IMG/VR virus record: IMGVR_UViG_3300019776_000231
Span: 1 to 27,153 of that record
Length of the DNA: 27,153 nucleotides
Direction: 5' to 3' (one strand)
Origin: a virus
A program made the position numbers and the translations under genes. Positions 7,467-23,126 of this stretch are shown piece by piece. How positions within the stretch are numbered: the stretch's first letter is position 1; each line of letters begins with the position of its first letter. The notes beneath the pieces were generated by a model. The model did no database searches, was not told the DNA's origin, and saw only the letters and a list, made by a program, of their open reading frames with translations.

Positions 7467-8420
7467 CTATTTTAGTGCTAATTTATGAATTTTATTTAAC
7501 CATTTTGCAAACTCCGCCAAATCGTTTTCCGGAGTGAGTTCGTTTGCTCTGTCAATAGATGCCTGACTTTGCTTTTGATAATCAATATTTTCAATAGCCT
7601 TTACCCATTCATCTATGGAATTCCGATCTTTGATATAAATAGCATGATTGCCCATTGCATCCCGAAATCCCCCTATATCAGTAGCTATAACAGGAATTCC
7701 GCAACACATGGCTTCTACTTGAGCTTGTCCGTAGCTTTCATATTCGGATGGACTGATTAAGATTTTAGTTTCCTTTAAATATATCCGAATGTCGGTAGTC
7801 ATTGGAACGTATTTAATATTCTTAACAAACTTATCTTTTACCTGATGATAGTAACCGCCTTGCACTGCCATAAACTTATGCTTTGGCAATCGCTTTGCAA
7901 TTTCAATCAAGATCTTACCGCCTTTGTTTTCGTTGTGATTAATCAGGGTAATATATTCAGCATTTGAACGGTTTACATCATTAAACTCCTTTTGAAATAC
8001 GGGAGGAGGTAATATAAAGTATTCCTGATTGTATCTAAGCTCTTTGTAAGTGTTTTCACAATTGTAAACTACAAATACATTTTTCCTGATCGGAATCTGT
8101 GGATAGCCTGCATTATTGTGAGCAAATGATAAGACTTTTTTATTATGAACCTTTGCTTTATTCATTGCATAACCTGTACCGGATAGCTGACAAAATACAA
8201 CATCGGCCCAATTCCAGAGATTATTATTATCGTTTCGCCAATCATCTCTATTTTGTTTAAAAACCTCAATACCCTCATAGCTATAAGGCTCTGGGCAATG
8301 TGCAATACATTTTACCGAATAGCCAATGCTTAACAAGTATTTAGCAACCTTATGCAGATATATTTCAGATCCAGCCCGTTGGTGTGGTAAGTATATGCCG
8401 GGAGTTAGGAGGATGTTCAT
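7467..8420 (-). CDS. GT-B glycosyltransferase (GT4-like)
   Basis: The 317-residue product begins MNILLTPGIYLPHQRAGSEIY, the usual N-terminus of GT-B retaining glycosyltransferases that transfer sugar from nucleotide donors. The C-terminal donor domain has ISPSEYESYGQAQVEAMCCGIPVIATDIGG, with the E-x7-E type motif and the Gly-rich loop of the GT4 family. No signal peptide or membrane span is seen, so it is probably cytosolic. I prefer the ATG at 8420 over a GTG at 8456, because it overlaps the stop of a 30-residue ORF as ATGA and matches the family start. It is the last gene of the glycan cassette. Acceptor and donor cannot be told from sequence. Confidence 0.85.
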   Translation of the reverse strand: MNILLTPGIYLPHQRAGSEIYLHKVAKYLLSIGYSVKCIAHCPEPYSYEGIEVFKQNRDDWRNDNNNLWNWADVVFCQLSGTGYAMNKAKVHNKKVLSFAHNNAGYPQIPIRKNVFVVYNCENTYKELRYNQEYFILPPPVFQKEFNDVNRSNAEYITLINHNENKGGKILIEIAKRLPKHKFMAVQGGYYHQVKDKFVKNIKYVPMTTDIRIYLKETKILISPSEYESYGQAQVEAMCCGIPVIATDIGGFRDAMGNHAIYIKDRNSIDEWVKAIENIDYQKQSQASIDRANELTPENDLAEFAKWLNKIHKLALK

Positions 8421-8509
8421 AGCAAAAGCAATTTTACAATTACAATAATAAAACACGCAACAATAACACCTATGCAGAACATTTTTATATCTTCTATTTC
8501 ATCGTTCAT
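8417..8509 (-). CDS. Very small single-span membrane protein (30 aa)
   Basis: An ATG at 8509 overlaps the stop of the upstream glycosyltransferase-like gene as ATGA. The frame ends with a TGA that overlaps the next gene's ATG, again as ATGA. The 30-residue product has a charged N-terminus (MNDEIEDIK) followed by about 20 hydrophobic residues including GVIVACFIIVIV, a Lys and a short Leu run. That predicts one membrane span. Matching 4-base overlaps at both ends argue for real translation. The function is unknown; anchoring or recruiting glycosyltransferases at the inner membrane is a guess from context. Confidence 0.6.
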   Translation of the reverse strand: MNDEIEDIKMFCIGVIVACFIIVIVKLLLL

Positions 8510-9108
8510 ATCAATTCTATAAATAAGTAAGGTTTACTAATTCTAATCTTATCGGTGTAGTTATGTAGATTACTTGCATGGTAATGATACGTTTTAATCG
8601 TATGAGCTGGATTTGTTATTTTATATCCAGCACGTTCTAGCTCCCATGCTATTCGGTTATCGCATCCAGGTATTCCTAAATGAAACTCTGCATATTTTAC
8701 ATTTCTCATTTTACCCGTAAATATCCAAACATCCTGACTAAACCGCTCATTGTGTAATTTAGGAGCTTGACCGGGTTTAATATCCCATCTACTCAAAGCA
8801 TAACATTCTTTATTTGGGTATAGCTTAATTAGGCTTAATGAAGCATCAAAGTAAATATCAGTATTGGCGATTATAGATATTTCATTCTCATTTTGGCTAT
8901 GCTGATTTATAGCATTAAAAAAATCTCTATATGTCGGTCTGTGAGTTCCCAAAATGCAAACTTTTGGATGACTAATCTCTATGCCATCACAGAACAACAT
9001 AATTCGATCAATTAACGGATTTGCAATATTTTGCTTAAGACAGTAATCTAACTCCTTTTGCCTGATCTCAGATTTATCCTTATAATAGGATGTGTATAGT
9101 GTAATCAT
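8506..9108 (-). CDS. Glycosyltransferase-like protein, GT-A type
   Basis: This 200-residue protein starts as MITLYTSYYKDKSEIRQKEL and resembles small GT-A-type or GT2-like proteins. It has a DIYFD segment (D84-D88, preceded by SIIANT) in the place of the metal- and nucleotide-sugar-binding DxD motif. A second block, HLGIPGCDNRIAWELERAGY, carries an acidic/basic pair followed by a His-rich TYHYHASN region. It has no membrane segment. The start forms an ATGA overlap with the acetyltransferase stop. I am fairly sure it belongs to the glycan cassette but not of the exact family, donor or linkage. Confidence 0.6.
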   Translation of the reverse strand: MITLYTSYYKDKSEIRQKELDYCLKQNIANPLIDRIMLFCDGIEISHPKVCILGTHRPTYRDFFNAINQHSQNENEISIIANTDIYFDASLSLIKLYPNKECYALSRWDIKPGQAPKLHNERFSQDVWIFTGKMRNVKYAEFHLGIPGCDNRIAWELERAGYKITNPAHTIKTYHYHASNLHNYTDKIRISKPYLFIELI

Positions 9109-9584
9109 AAATTAAATAATTTGTCAAAATCTCTGCTATGCAAAACAGGTGCAATATCCCTGACCTTTTGATCTGGCATATCCCACCACTTTAAACATAG
9201 TAAACCCGTAATCTGTTCGTCTGTAAATCTTTTGCGAATAACTCTGCCATTACCAACAACAAGCGAATATGGCTCTATATCATGCGATATAATTGACCTT
9301 GCGCCAATAACCGCCCCATCACCGATATTTACACCTGACCTAATAATAGAATCAGCACCAATCCAAACATCATTCCCTATATTTATATCACCTGAGCAAA
9401 CATTATTGTTTTCCGTTAATCCCCAAGTATGAAATGGATAAGTACTAATTTTAGTTATGTCATGATCCCATCCACCATCAAAAATTACATTATCACCAAT
9501 AGAACAGTATTTTCCTATTCTAATAGTATTCATTTCACCCCTACGAATGACATTACCATAGGTATGATCTCCTTTAATTACCAT
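9105..9584 (-). CDS. Hexapeptide-repeat O-acetyltransferase (CatB/Vat-like)
   Basis: This 159-residue enzyme belongs to the left-handed beta-helix acyltransferases and would move acetyl from acetyl-CoA to a hydroxyl, most likely on a sugar in this context. Hexapeptide repeats are visible as IRIGKYCSIGDNVIF (from residue 21) and INIGNDVWIGADSIIRSGVNIGDGAVIGARSIIS. The loop GGWDHDITKISTYPF holds the probable catalytic His41, followed by YPF as in Vat/CatB-like proteins. A C-terminal WWDMPDQKV block is also typical of the family. Its ATG overlaps a 37-residue ORF by 11 bases. Antibiotic acetylation is the family's best-known role but is unlikely here, given four flanking glycosyltransferases. 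Confidence 0.85.
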   Translation of the reverse strand: MVIKGDHTYGNVIRRGEMNTIRIGKYCSIGDNVIFDGGWDHDITKISTYPFHTWGLTENNNVCSGDINIGNDVWIGADSIIRSGVNIGDGAVIGARSIISHDIEPYSLVVGNGRVIRKRFTDEQITGLLCLKWWDMPDQKVRDIAPVLHSRDFDKLFNL

Positions 9585-9687
9585 AGATATATTTTATTAA
9601 TCCAATGACCGCCAATAAAATAAAACTAAATCCTAACAAACAGAATCCTCCGCAAGTCATGTGAAATAAAAACTTAACGATTTTCAT
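9574..9687 (-). CDS. Very small single-span membrane protein (37 aa)
   Basis: An ATG at 9687 lies within the last codons of the DUF5672 gene (14-base overlap), and the frame ends with TAA inside the acetyltransferase gene (11-base overlap). The product starts MKIVKFLFHMTCGG, continues as a hydrophobic stretch of about 20 residues (FCLLGFSFILLAVIGLI) and ends KYIYGN. A basic N-terminus followed by one span is predicted, so Lys residues probably stay cytosolic. It fills exactly the only gap between these two genes. It shares the one-span plan but no obvious sequence with the 30-residue protein at 8417..8509. Function is unknown. Confidence 0.55.
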   Translation of the reverse strand: MKIVKFLFHMTCGGFCLLGFSFILLAVIGLIKYIYGN

Positions 9688-10237
9688 ATTGATTTAAGAT
9701 TAATTTATAATTTTTGAGATACTTATCAATGGCATGATACCCTAATGAACCCAAAGCAAATTCCGTTTCCACGCTGAAAGACTGAGCTATTTCTTTGCTC
9801 GGTTTATTGTCAATGTGCTTGCAAAAATAAATGTCCTCATTCCCATCTATGGCCATACCCTGATATGGATGGTTTACGCAAATATCATACATTACTTTTG
9901 GATTACGCAAAGATAAACCCCCGTTCATGCAGTCGGGTATATTCTTAATCGGTGCGCCAATAAAATCCCATCGTAAAAAGCCCTCAATGCCCTCACGTAA
10001 TAATCCTGAATCATGCTGGAATATTAGCACCCGATCATAGTTACATCCACGCCAAAATGAGGGATTTGTCAGGACTGCATTATAATCTCTGGCAGACTTT
10101 AAACTATAAATACCGCCCTCATAAGGCGGCATAATATGGAATATCTCCCACGACTTAGGAATGAATTTACGGTGTCGCTTAATCGCATTATTTGCGACAT
10201 TAACCCGATCATCAACTATGATTGCACAATATTTCAT
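9674..10237 (-). CDS. DUF5672 family, glycosyltransferase-like protein
   Basis: This 187-residue protein carries what I recognise as the DUF5672 pattern. It reads VLIFQHDSGLLREGIEGFL, then WDFIGAPI, NGGLSLRNPKVM, a GNEDIYFC acidic block, FSVETEFA and LGYHAI near the C-terminus. DUF5672 proteins occur in glycan loci and are thought to be GT-A-type glycosyltransferases; QHDSG is the candidate donor/metal site. The N-terminus (YCAIIVDDRVN) resembles the first strand of a Rossmann-like domain. No membrane span is present. It overlaps the upstream glycosyltransferase by ATGA and the small membrane ORF by 14 bases. Confidence 0.75.
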   Translation of the reverse strand: MKYCAIIVDDRVNVANNAIKRHRKFIPKSWEIFHIMPPYEGGIYSLKSARDYNAVLTNPSFWRGCNYDRVLIFQHDSGLLREGIEGFLRWDFIGAPIKNIPDCMNGGLSLRNPKVMYDICVNHPYQGMAIDGNEDIYFCKHIDNKPSKEIAQSFSVETEFALGSLGYHAIDKYLKNYKLILNQYENR

Positions 10238-10983
10238 ACCAACCGTTTAGAATAGTTATGATGTGTTTTCATATATTCAGGAAGTACCGTTTTATCAAAT
10301 GAAATAGGATTCCATATCCCGAATGCAACACAATGAACATCATCAAAAGCATTTTCAGGATTCCATTTGTAATAAACATCGTTTAACCAATCCTTACGCA
10401 CTTCATGGGCATGACCAAACACATTGTATTTATATCGCATGATATATTCAGGCTGGCAGGTGCTGAAGTGATAAATAGTCTGCTTTAAATTTAGATTTTG
10501 CGTAAAGTTTTTACGGTGCAAGTTCTCTATTCTAATCGGTCTGAATCCATCCGTACACACATAATCAAATGAACGCCAAAAGTTTAAATACCCATCAATC
10601 CCGTAGAACCGTTCAACTCCCCAATAGGCATATTCAAAGGATGCCGGTAATTCATCTGATTTGTAAACCTCGTCTGAATCAACAGTTAATACCAAGTCAA
10701 AGTCATCCGTATATTTATACTTAACGTTACGATGTTCGTTTTCAGCTCCGTATCGCTCGGCTCTATCCCAAATCAGCTTATCACCTAAAACATCCTGACA
10801 TATATCAAAAATGTACCCCTCTGAATCAGGACATTCCATCCAAGTTCCATGACCTTGAGACGGTTGCTTTGAATAAGCAATAACCATTTTATCTACATGG
10901 TCTACAACTGACATCAAGGATTCACGTAGATATGCACCCCCGTAATGGATGGTCATAAAACCTAATACTTTAATTTTGCTCAT
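10234..10983 (-). CDS. GT-A glycosyltransferase (GT2-like)
   Basis: This 249-residue protein opens with KVLGFMTIHYGGAYLRESLMSVVDHVDKMVIAYS, the pattern of a GT2-type nucleotide-binding N-terminus. A clear DxD motif lies in LVLTVDSDEVY (D102-S-D104). The C-terminal half is aromatic- and His-rich (YHFSTCQPEY, VFGHAHEVRKDW, THHNYSKRLV), as in some lipopolysaccharide glycosyltransferases. No membrane span is seen, which argues against a GtrB-type bactoprenol transferase. It overlaps its upstream neighbour by 14 bases and its downstream neighbour by 4. Donor and acceptor are unknown. Confidence 0.75.
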   Translation of the reverse strand: MSKIKVLGFMTIHYGGAYLRESLMSVVDHVDKMVIAYSKQPSQGHGTWMECPDSEGYIFDICQDVLGDKLIWDRAERYGAENEHRNVKYKYTDDFDLVLTVDSDEVYKSDELPASFEYAYWGVERFYGIDGYLNFWRSFDYVCTDGFRPIRIENLHRKNFTQNLNLKQTIYHFSTCQPEYIMRYKYNVFGHAHEVRKDWLNDVYYKWNPENAFDDVHCVAFGIWNPISFDKTVLPEYMKTHHNYSKRLV

Positions 10984-11887
10984 ATATTCTAATTAAGTTT
11001 TTCACCATGTTATCAAATGTATAATTATTTCTCACAAACTCATTGCCTTGCCTAGAAATTTGATCACGTTCTTCCTTATTAGCATCATTCATGTAATGCC
11101 TGATTAAACTTAATAACTGTGGAAGTGTAGACCATGTTCTAACATGAACACCATCTATAAATGGCATATTCGGGTAATATCTACATAAACAGAAAGCACC
11201 TGTTCCCAATATTCTATATATCCGGTCAGAACTGTAACAGTCCTCATCAAAATGGCTTAGATTGATAGCTATTTTAGTAGCTCTGTACGCCTTAGCTTCC
11301 TCTGCCTGCGAATGATTATAGTTACCTGCAACATTATGCCAGTTGTTACCGTAAACCCCGTAGCGGTTGCCAAATTGCCTATGCAGCAGATTATTCATCT
11401 CAATCCTAAAATGGCTTAACGGGAATTTATTAGCTCCATAGTTATTCCCAAAAAAAGATATTTCTCTGCACTTGCCTATTTCAGCATCAGGTGTATAAAT
11501 TTCAGGATCGTAACCAATTTCAAGATAGCCACCGTTCACCACGTTTCGGGCATCTCTATTATTGCTGAATAAAGTACGATCTACATATGGAGCCATATCA
11601 ATCATCCATTGAGGAGTTGAATGTCGTATATCACCATTCCAATTAACAATGAAAGCTCCCGTTTCTCGCATAGCCTTTACAGTTTCAATATGGATTATAT
11701 CAGGACTTTGAATCTGCATAAATATCAAATCAGGTTTAAATTCCCTGGCAATCCTTACAGCTTCCTGATTAACGTCAATAGCTCCCGTAGATAACTCGAT
11801 ATAATCAGTTGAATTAGCTATAAATGCCTTACGTGCCGAATCATTCGGAGGAGGTGCAACCATTAGACCTAAATGGAAAATTCTCAT
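10970..11887 (-). CDS. GT-B glycosyltransferase (CgeB/Glyco_trans_1_2-like)
   Basis: This 305-residue protein starts MRIFHLGLMVAPPPND, followed by a Rossmann-like N-terminal half with FKPDLIFMQIQSPD and INWNGDIRHSTPQW-type blocks (seen as IVNWNGDIR). The C-terminal half contains ISFFGNNYG, KIAINLSHFDED, then SSDRIYRILGTGAFCLCRYYP. That matches the S.R.YE.LG.GA.LL pattern of CgeB-like glycosyltransferases. A helical C-terminus (NYTFDNMVKNLIRIYEQN) closes the domain as usual. It is the first enzyme of the glycan cassette and overlaps the 58-residue ORF upstream as ATGA. Confidence 0.75.
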   Translation of the reverse strand: MRIFHLGLMVAPPPNDSARKAFIANSTDYIELSTGAIDVNQEAVRIAREFKPDLIFMQIQSPDIIHIETVKAMRETGAFIVNWNGDIRHSTPQWMIDMAPYVDRTLFSNNRDARNVVNGGYLEIGYDPEIYTPDAEIGKCREISFFGNNYGANKFPLSHFRIEMNNLLHRQFGNRYGVYGNNWHNVAGNYNHSQAEEAKAYRATKIAINLSHFDEDCYSSDRIYRILGTGAFCLCRYYPNMPFIDGVHVRTWSTLPQLLSLIRHYMNDANKEERDQISRQGNEFVRNNYTFDNMVKNLIRIYEQN

Positions 11888-21070: not shown

Positions 21071-21444
21071 GTTTTTTTAGTTGCTTCTAATTCTGTTTTT
21101 AATCGGTTATTTTCATTTACCAATTCCGCCATTTTTAACTGATTATGTCTAAGTAATAGTTGAGCAGTATTATTTTGATTTGCGATTTTATCCAATTTAT
21201 CGGCAAGATCAATCATTTCATTTGCCCGGTCAAGTGATTTTTTAGTATGATCGCTTTTGCCATTCTTATCCTGAAATACTTTTACATCTGTCTGTATATC
21301 GTAAATAAGGCTTTTTAAGCGCATTAAATTTATTGATGGGTATAAAGTATCTTCTAACCATGCGAAAGTTAAACCTATCTCAGCATTTAGGCATGAAAGT
21401 AGTTCTTTTGTATTGGCATCATACTGACTAATAAACTTACTCAA
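21058..21444 (-). CDS. Unknown helical protein (128 aa), TTG start
   Basis: The 128-residue product is almost entirely helical. It has a C-terminal coiled-coil-like segment (residues about 95-124, AELVNENNRLKTELEATKK) and a charged middle (DKNGKSDHTKKSLDRANEM). It probably begins with TTG at 21444, because that codon overlaps the upstream stop as TTGA, mirroring the ATGA overlaps used throughout, and the next Met lies about 40 codons in. I do not recognise a family. Location directly after the RecA/DnaB-fold ATPase suggests a replication accessory or helicase-associated factor, but that is only positional. Confidence 0.6.
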   Translation of the reverse strand: MSKFISQYDANTKELLSCLNAEIGLTFAWLEDTLYPSINLMRLKSLIYDIQTDVKVFQDKNGKSDHTKKSLDRANEMIDLADKLDKIANQNNTAQLLLRHNQLKMAELVNENNRLKTELEATKKTWES

Positions 21445-22415
21445 AATAAATCTCCTTTCTCTGTATCAAAATTTTCATTTATGGGTACTGTGAAATCATT
21501 CGGTAAAATAACATCGTCACCTTTTTCATGCTCAAAGGCATATCGGTCACGACCATTTATGTCCTCATAATATCGGTTAGTTTTCCAATTAAAGTACAAT
21601 GAAGTAGTTCCACGATTTGCAGAACCTTTAGGCTTTGCCTTTTCAACATTTATGATAACTTCATTCTCTTTGTATGCAATTCCATCCTGACGTAAAAATA
21701 CGGGTGGCCTCCAGATATTTATCCATCCCATAGCCTTACGAAATAAAGATTGACCTCCGGCGGCTTGTCTTGCAGTAGCCATTCCATAGTATTTATTTTT
21801 GGTTTCTTTGTCCTCTGTCATTTCCTGTACAGATGGATGCAAAGCTAAAATTACGTGTTTTTTGTTTTTGCTAACAAACCTTCTCATATTACCGATTAAG
21901 TCCTCAATATACAAATCCTGCCTCGTGCCGAATTTACTCATGTCGTGATTTAATTCATTATATGGATCGGCAAATATCAAATGATTATCTCCGCACATTC
22001 CGTATATTTCATCTAAAGAAAACGACCTCTCATTACTGTCAATAATATCAAAGTATTCATCAATCCAATTAACAGCAGCAAAATATTCTTTATCATCTGC
22101 ATGACCTGGCAAGGAAGTAAATATCTGTTTACCGCATCTCTTATGAATTAACTCAGCATATATCTGCTCTACGCTTCCCGTTTCAGGTGAATATATTAAG
22201 GATTTACGCCCGTACTTTTCAGCTTGATTAAATAACAATTCAAAGCAGAATTCTGTTTTCCCTGAATGCGGAGGGCCTAAAACAAAAGTAAATGATCCTG
22301 GCTTAATTGAGTATAATTCATCTAAGCATTTAAACCCTGTATTGTTTCCACGTTGCAAACCTTCGGCACGTAGTTTTTCCAGTTCTTTTTGGATATGTGT
22401 AAACTTTTTTATCAT
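21441..22415 (-). CDS. RecA/DnaB-fold ATPase, probable replicative helicase
   Basis: This 324-residue P-loop protein resembles the C-terminal domain of DnaB/gp4-like helicases without an obvious N-terminal primase or DnaB N-domain. It has TGFKCLDEL before the core, Walker A GPPHSGKT (47-54), an SLIYSPETG segment with the conserved acidic residue after strand 2, Walker B LIFAD (146-150), and VILALHPS. ARQAAGGQSLFRKAMGWINIWRP probably matches the late DnaB motifs. It most likely unwinds DNA at the phage fork, loaded by the DUF1376 protein encoded just upstream, with which it overlaps as ATGA. A RadA/KaiC-like recombination ATPase is an alternative. Confidence 0.72.
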   Translation of the reverse strand: MIKKFTHIQKELEKLRAEGLQRGNNTGFKCLDELYSIKPGSFTFVLGPPHSGKTEFCFELLFNQAEKYGRKSLIYSPETGSVEQIYAELIHKRCGKQIFTSLPGHADDKEYFAAVNWIDEYFDIIDSNERSFSLDEIYGMCGDNHLIFADPYNELNHDMSKFGTRQDLYIEDLIGNMRRFVSKNKKHVILALHPSVQEMTEDKETKNKYYGMATARQAAGGQSLFRKAMGWINIWRPPVFLRQDGIAYKENEVIINVEKAKPKGSANRGTTSLYFNWKTNRYYEDINGRDRYAFEHEKGDDVILPNDFTVPINENFDTEKGDLF

Positions 22416-22924
22416 AACGGAAATTTACAATCGTGATCGTACTTTTTTCTAAACTCTGGATCTGATTCGTATCGCATTCTCGTTGCGTCCCCAACGGGGT
22501 AAGCAAAAAGAGGATGCCCTTTTCTTACAAATACTATAGTATTTGTTTCTATTTCTATTTGCTTCGGCTTTTGGCTTGCTGTTTTTTGATTTTTGGCTTC
22601 GTTTTGGCTTATACTTTGGCTTCGTTTTGGCTTACTTCCGTTCTCATAATTACGCTTAATTATGATCAATCTTTTGTCACATGATGGGATTCTCCAGCTC
22701 CCGTTTTTTTGTTCTCCTTTTAATTTTAGTACGTTTTTAATGTCCTCAATTTCTCCATTCGTATAACGACTTAATGCTTCAATTGAATACTTTATATTGT
22801 TGTTTGTCTGATACGCCAAATCCATTAAATCACGGTATATGCCGCGTTCAGCCGCTGTCATTAACATTACATCCGGATCGCTTGCAAAGTCTTTAGGATA
22901 CCATGTATAACCAAGTTTGCTCAT
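22412..22924 (-). CDS. DUF1376 replication-initiator-like protein
   Basis: This 170-residue protein has an N-terminal DUF1376 (YdaU-like) domain: WYPKDFASDPDVMLMTAAERGIYRDLMDLAY, within residues 7-38, then ALSRYTNGEIEDIKNVL. DUF1376 proteins are phage replication proteins usually encoded just before a helicase or helicase loader, as here. Residues about 90-125 are a low-complexity Lys/Gln/Ser/Asn linker encoded by repeated DNA (22570-22634) that resembles origin iterons. The C-terminus (DATRMRYESDPEFRKKYD) is a short charged helix. Its stop overlaps the ATPase start as ATGA. The layout recalls lambda O, whose gene contains the origin. Confidence 0.78.
   Translation of the reverse strand: MSKLGYTWYPKDFASDPDVMLMTAAERGIYRDLMDLAYQTNNNIKYSIEALSRYTNGEIEDIKNVLKLKGEQKNGSWRIPSCDKRLIIIKRNYENGSKPKRSQSISQNEAKNQKTASQKPKQIEIETNTIVFVRKGHPLFAYPVGDATRMRYESDPEFRKKYDHDCKFPL
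22527..22546. repeat. Perfect 20-bp palindrome inside the DUF1376 gene
   Basis: The half ACAAATACTA is followed immediately by its exact reverse complement TAGTATTTGT, with no spacer. It lies 23 bases from the phased repeats at 22570-22634. A perfect 20-bp palindrome in coding DNA suggests a dimeric protein-binding site or an origin element. Confidence 0.8.
22570..22634 (-). repeat. Phased TTTGGCTT repeats, candidate replication origin
   Basis: Plus-strand copies of TTTGGCTT begin at 22570, 22592, 22603, 22615 and 22626, so spacings are 22, 11, 12 and 11 bases, close to one or two helical turns. Two of them form a perfect 20-base direct repeat (22592-22611 and 22615-22634). A further one-mismatch copy lies at 22563. 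They sit in the low-complexity linker of the replication protein gene, beside a perfect palindrome. The repeats are seen; origin function is inferred. Confidence 0.6.
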
Positions 22925-22961: not shown

Positions 22962-23126
22962 TTATTTCTTTGTAGACTTATCCACAAATGATTTACCTAA
23001 AAATTGAACCTGTTTAATTTTACCTTCTTTTATCCAGTTATAAATAGTCTGTCTTTCAACTCCTATAAACGCTGCATAATCCTGAACGGTCATTAAATTT
23101 ACAGGATTTATTAATTGTTTTTCCAT
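22962..23126 (-). CDS. Small helix-turn-helix protein, excisionase-like (54 aa)
   Basis: The product has the pattern of the HTH_17/excisionase family: an N-terminal MTVQDYAAFIGVERQTIYNW helix-turn-helix (from residue 12), then IKEGKIKQVQFLGKSFVD, the usual wing with a Gly-Lys turn. Such 50-70-residue proteins act as Xis-like directionality factors or small transcription regulators. No integrase is seen in the window, so a regulator of replication genes is as likely as an excisionase. It lies 13 bases after the VRR-NUC gene and 37 bases before the DUF1376 gene. An alternative start is the Met at codon 12. Confidence 0.8.
   Translation of the reverse strand: MEKQLINPVNLMTVQDYAAFIGVERQTIYNWIKEGKIKQVQFLGKSFVDKSTKK

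Follow-up and report, generated by a model that had tools for sequence, protein, structure and literature searches.

Why should the gene for a DUF1376 protein carry, in the middle of its coding sequence, a dense run of identical octamers? The question is raised by a virus record from IMG/VR, 27153 bases long, analysed over its whole length and called the window here. TTTGGCTT is found on its plus strand as five exact copies, at 22570, 22592, 22603, 22615, and 22626, with successive spacings of 22, 11, 12, and 11 over 22570-22633 (coding-strand form AAGCCAAA); a near copy, TTCGGCTT, lies at 22563-22570 and overlaps the first exact copy by one base. An earlier sequence-only reading had given the same copies, positions, and spacings, and had placed them in the linker of the DUF1376 protein; both descriptions are exact, the iterons encoding part of residues 98-146. 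It had also called the repeats helically phased, which suits the 11- and 22-bp steps (about one and two turns) but fits the 12-bp step less well. The gene and array, in coding order, are as follows.

22412..22924, minus strand: DUF1376 gene, 170 aa, proposed origin-binding initiator (PF07120 and PHROGs matches)
22634..22897, minus strand: predicted N-terminal winged-helix domain, residues 10-97 (AlphaFold2 model)
22487..22633, minus strand: predicted disordered linker, residues 98-146 (pLDDT < 50), its codons supplied by the iteron array and the elements next to it
22626..22633, minus strand: iteron 1, AAGCCAAA, read AAG CCA AA
22615..22622, minus strand: iteron 2, AAGCCAAA, read A AGC CAA A
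22603..22610, minus strand: iteron 3, AAGCCAAA, read A AGC CAA A
22592..22599, minus strand: iteron 4, AAGCCAAA, read AA GCC AAA, the third frame
22570..22577, minus strand: iteron 5, AAGCCAAA, beyond the 22-bp skip
22558..22570, minus strand: degenerate array end AAGCCGAAGCAAA, made of near copies; the arrays of many relatives end similarly, in AAGCAAATAGAAA or AAGCAAAGAGAAA

This is the strongest and densest repeat array of the window. TTTGGCTT occurs 10 times in the whole 27153 bases, against 2.05 expected, a count reached in none of 100 shuffles. Five non-overlapping copies within 72 nt, as found here, is the window's maximum for any 8-mer; when the whole window was simulated 200 times under a second-order Markov model, no 8-mer exceeded three copies in that span. 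The top score of Tandem Repeats Finder in the window also falls here (22591-22633, period 11), and no second array of the same kind was seen elsewhere in it.

One possible answer lies in the protein: the repeats could be a low-complexity linker, grown by slippage and kept as a flexible, basic spacer. The linker is indeed predicted to be disordered. However, the AAGCCAAA copies occupy all three reading frames and encode KPK, SQ, or EAK by copy, because the 11-bp steps shift the frame; repeat growth driven by the protein would keep the repeats in frame. For this reason, and for others given below from the wider family, a protein spacer is a very improbable explanation of the array.

A comparison with close relatives points the same way. 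At two IMG/VR loci the encoded protein is 94% and 89% identical, respectively, to that of the window; the comparison covers the window, L001, and L009 (L002 and L009 are one contig). In the N-domain, 52 of the 79 codons that can be compared vary synonymously, against 2 of 34 in the iterons plus the inverted repeat described below (p 1e-9). All five octamers are invariant in L001 and L009, and every change in the iteron block, amino-acid changes included, falls outside them, so that the alignment with relatives proposed in the sequence-only reading finds octamers kept while adjacent bases vary. That reading would have been contradicted by repeats lost from a linker of preserved composition; the reverse was found, since in distant relatives the linkers change while the core and its 11/12/22-bp layout stay. 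With synonymous sites of the N-domain varying freely while the octamers are invariant, and the linker itself changing in distant relatives, it is the DNA rather than the protein that is conserved.

Recent recombination, homogenising the linker and C-terminus, could in principle produce low divergence among such close relatives with no selection at all. Synonymous divergence is lower towards the C-terminus of the gene as well (8 of 29 codons variable among those that can be compared, against the 52 of 79 of the N-domain), and the small genes upstream differ: the one at 22962-23126 (minus strand), directly upstream of the DUF1376 gene, is not the same in the window, L001, and L009, which suggests module exchange. 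Against this, changes in the iteron block are confined to positions outside the octamers, and exchange of long tracts cannot account for the way in which distant relatives match the 11/12/22 layout while using different frames; recombination as the source of the pattern is therefore very unlikely. A stretch of 28 nt in the C-terminal coding part (22483-22510) is likewise invariant across the three loci, possibly as a further origin element and possibly through recent recombination.

The wider family was represented by 80 loci and a few others, reduced at 80% identity to 47 non-redundant genes including that of the window. Their linkers contain 194 AAGCC cores, against 57 +/- 6 (maximum 73) when codons are permuted synonymously; outside the linker the same genes have only 15. 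Spacings in the linkers are 12 bp (97 cases), 11 (23), and 22 (21), the common layouts being 12, 12, 11, and 22 bp or plain 12-bp steps, often ending in one or other of the two forms listed above. L014, for example, has 12, 12, 11, 22 where the window has 11, 12, 11, 22, and the 22-bp skip before the last iteron is retained in many distant relatives. Some lineages use other words: AACCCAA at 11 bp (L010), and GAACCT at 12 bp (L072 and L073).

The distribution over reading frames is uneven (156/11/27), and the frame decides whether KP, EA/KA, or SL is encoded. That the iterons of the larger clade are mostly in frame (156 of 194), with a 12-bp period, speaks for a protein spacer and against the origin reading, and KPxx protein repeats may add a constraint of their own in that clade. 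Several observations nonetheless run counter to a spacer. In L044 and L050 the same, unchanged DNA core is read in another frame, with EA/KA repeats replacing KP. Linker charge varies over the family (with approximate linker boundaries). The excess of cores over permuted sequences is large, and lysine in linker Lys-Pro pairs is encoded by AAG in 156 of 168 cases, compared with 263 of 1263 other lysines; as these genes otherwise favour AAA, this agrees with a DNA-level constraint. Over 23 disjoint pairs, synonymous difference is suppressed to 13.5% in iteron codons (counted where AAGCC is present in either sequence of the pair), compared with 39% in the N-domain, 38% in the C-terminus, and 25.5% in the non-iteron linker.

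Of the DUF1376 genes, 72% were positive in a test for repeats, against 3% of 132 ORFs from their neighbourhood that served as controls; when only out-of-frame repeats were counted, with p <= 0.05, the proportions were 43 and 5%. Among 14 DUF1376 genes from cultured phages or prophages, 5 fell short of this level in the out-of-frame test, as did the Bacteroidota gene L207. A scan of genome contigs gave only Sphingobacterium sp. SGG-5, and 395 genomes of its phylum yielded three DUF1376 and three DUF6291 matches. A constraint at the DNA level, beyond what the protein needs, is thus well supported by these sequences, and the suggestion that such a constraint shaped the odd linker is strengthened by the use of three frames, the 194 cores against 57, and the suppressed synonymous change.

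Further elements adjoin the array on the side of its degenerate end.

22547..22560, minus strand: tract AAATAGAAATAGAA, rich in purines and in A+T, immediately following the iterons; candidate unwinding element
22527..22546, no strand: inverted repeat ACAAATACT-AT-AGTATTTGT, a perfect 20-bp palindrome
22489..22499, no strand: small inverted repeat CCCC-GTT-GGGG (coding strand), within the invariant 28-nt stretch

Both arms of the 20-bp palindrome are kept in L001 and L009. Over the 47 genes, the 45 nt after the repeats average 0.85 purine and 0.79 A+T, as counted from sequence only. Since a hairpin-forming segment adjoins the array (z -3.2), a signal in the mRNA, acting through structure or recoding, could also be imagined. 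The iteron strand itself, however, is unstructured (MFE -0.6 kcal/mol, z +0.96, with DNA parameters), there is no Rfam match in the window, and the reading frame is simply continuous; a role at the RNA level is thus extremely unlikely. A perfect DnaA box, TTATCCACA at 22978, was considered and rejected: the window has 2 TTATNCACA sites where 2.0 are expected, and the position of the box is not kept in relatives.

If the constraint is on DNA, the protein encoded around it is an obvious candidate to bind there. The DUF1376 assignment is narrow but above the curated cut-off (PF07120, 30.6 bits vs. 30.1). PHROGs matches of the protein are to primosomal and DnaD-like loader families, and its structural neighbours in BFVD are DUF1376 proteins. 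The AlphaFold2 model has pLDDT of 70-92 over residues 11 to 90 and 65 over 91-100. The nearest solved folds to the predicted N-domain are N-domains of RepA_N Rep proteins, at ranks 1, 2, 4, and 5 (4pql, 4pt7, 5kbj, and 4pta: Z 6.1-6.7, 77-78 residues aligned), with other winged helices scoring close. The match is modest (best Z 6.7, Foldseek E 0.016), and the likeness is taken as support for an initiator, not for family membership: a Pfam scan lists DUF1376 only, and not PF06970 (RepA_N). Neither Pfam nor PHROGs scans matched the protein to an O-type replication family, a sequence search of solved structures gave nothing meaningful for it, and the annotated phage collection held no direct relative of it or of L075. 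On the model and these matches, the gene at 22412..22924 looks like an initiator gene.

Its neighbourhood is consistent with this.

21441..22415, minus strand: gene for a DnaB-like/RecA-fold helicase relative, 324 aa; the next gene, with an ATGA overlap with the DUF1376 gene

PHROGs matches of this product are phrog_5482 (6.7e-34), phrog_18375 (primase/helicase, 6.9e-20), and phrog_19 (DnaB-like, 4.4e-9). In relatives the gene after DUF1376 often encodes a DnaB-like helicase or a primase-helicase; its counterparts in cultured phages encode a DnaC-like loader, a helicase loader, or a P-like, DnaB, or DnaA-like protein. The DUF1376 protein YdaU of the E. coli Rac prophage has a C-terminal part common to lambdoid O proteins. 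Elsewhere in the window, six ORFs lie within the structural gene block at 7467-11887, several of them glycosyltransferase- or sugar acetyltransferase-like by eye.

The array is therefore probably the phage's replication origin, placed within its own initiator gene and bound by the DUF1376 protein; we infer both origin and binding from the DNA-level conservation, the predicted winged helix, the DnaB-like neighbour, and the precedent of similar layouts elsewhere. The candidate origin of the sequence-only reading gains support from the first three of these. Its proposed GC-skew check was uninformative: the skew keeps one sign along the window, with no switch, in a fragment whose genes almost all share a strand. 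As a scheme, the N-terminal winged helix of the DUF1376 protein would bind the AAGCC iterons at their spacings of 11, 12, 11, and 22 bp, forming a nucleoprotein complex; the adjoining A+T-rich purine tract (with the inverted repeat, in the window's clade) would then be opened, and the DnaB-like helicase from the next gene loaded. The Lys/Gln/Ser-rich linker would be largely a by-product of coding through iteron DNA.

The same protein might instead bind the same iterons for another purpose: regulation (autorepression or a block to transcription), partition, or packaging. Conservation reveals a DNA site but not what it is for, and the array sits in a co-directed run of genes, upstream of the helicase gene. 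An operator, on the other hand, should lie close to a promoter and not among linker codons in mid-gene; the neighbouring genes are those of replicative helicases; and iterons, A+T-rich tract, and initiator-like fold jointly fit known origins. A purpose other than initiation is accordingly unlikely. If the array is an origin, DUF1376, whose annotated function is unknown, gains a concrete and testable one, and the likely origin of many uncultured phages could be located by sequence alone. The odd linker would be explained as a by-product of DNA constraint, and its reading in three frames would make it a clear natural example of selection on DNA prevailing over protein sequence.

Similar arrays are found in other families. 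IMG/VR was scanned, at the DNA level only, for AAGCCAAANNNAAGCCAAA; this word was chosen by the analyst, so the scan shows the layout rather than the universality of one word. Many of the matches listed are chance pairs. Arrays of at least three AAGCCAA at 11, 12, or 22 bp, among the matches listed, are mostly in initiator-like genes (DUF6291, Lin1244_N, and replisome-organizer types), the exceptions being L099 and the fragment L090. An excess of out-of-frame repeats (p 0.03, 0.01, and 0.01) is also present in three DUF6291 genes picked from genomes irrespective of repeats. A DUF6291 gene at L119 3771-4805 has two separate arrays, each of five AAGCCAA spaced 22, 11, 11, and 11. The linker of ydaU (L205 10120-10977) contains TGTTCAAACA twice and its reverse complement TGTTTGAACA once, and is a candidate, as a lead, for the Rac prophage origin oriJ. 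The chances seem about even that the low-complexity linkers of DUF1376, DUF6291, Lin1244_N, and related phage proteins are generally hidden replication origins; if they are, origin and recognition word could be read straight from the initiator gene of uncultured phages. The literature searched did not yield DUF1376, DUF6291, or Lin1244_N genes as the site of such arrays.

The window does share the traits of known origins lying within initiator genes: tandem direct repeats in coding sequence, conservation at the DNA level, and an adjacent A+T-rich region, all read from the DNA. The lambda ori, to which the array had been likened at the outset, has tandem iterons in the middle of gene O with an A+T-rich tract adjoining (PMC7466680), and the likeness holds: in both, iterons lie in mid-gene beside such a tract, and a helicase-related gene follows. 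Lambda iterons, however, are 19-bp imperfect inverted repeats, while those of the window are 8-bp cores without dyad; the next gene here is DnaB-like, unlike the lambda P loader, and the window protein has no O-family match. In phage SPP1, oriL lies in gene 38, for the replisome organizer, with direct repeats, an A+T-rich unwinding element, and a phage-encoded DnaB-family helicase (PMC6316719). The window similarly has direct repeats and an A+T-rich element within the gene of a proposed origin-binding protein, but that protein is of another family and the host group is different, and SPP1 has a second origin.

Besides lambda, the best-matching precedent is the layout of RepA_N plasmids. In the Staphylococcus aureus plasmid pSK41, the Rep boxes are central in rep, and the origin-encoded central domain is a dispensable linker (PMC5703833). 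The window shares with this system a proposed initiator with a predicted winged-helix N-domain (binding by the window protein being putative) and repeats in mid-gene. Most RepA_N iterons are semi-palindromic around a poly-A centre (PMC7145576), whereas those of the window are short and non-palindromic, in 11-12-bp units; and pSK41 Rep has a DnaD-like C-domain where the window protein has only a short tail. An origin within an initiator gene is thus of a kind known from lambda, SPP1, and RepA_N plasmids; what is new is the DUF1376 setting and the short iterons at 11, 12, and 22 bp.
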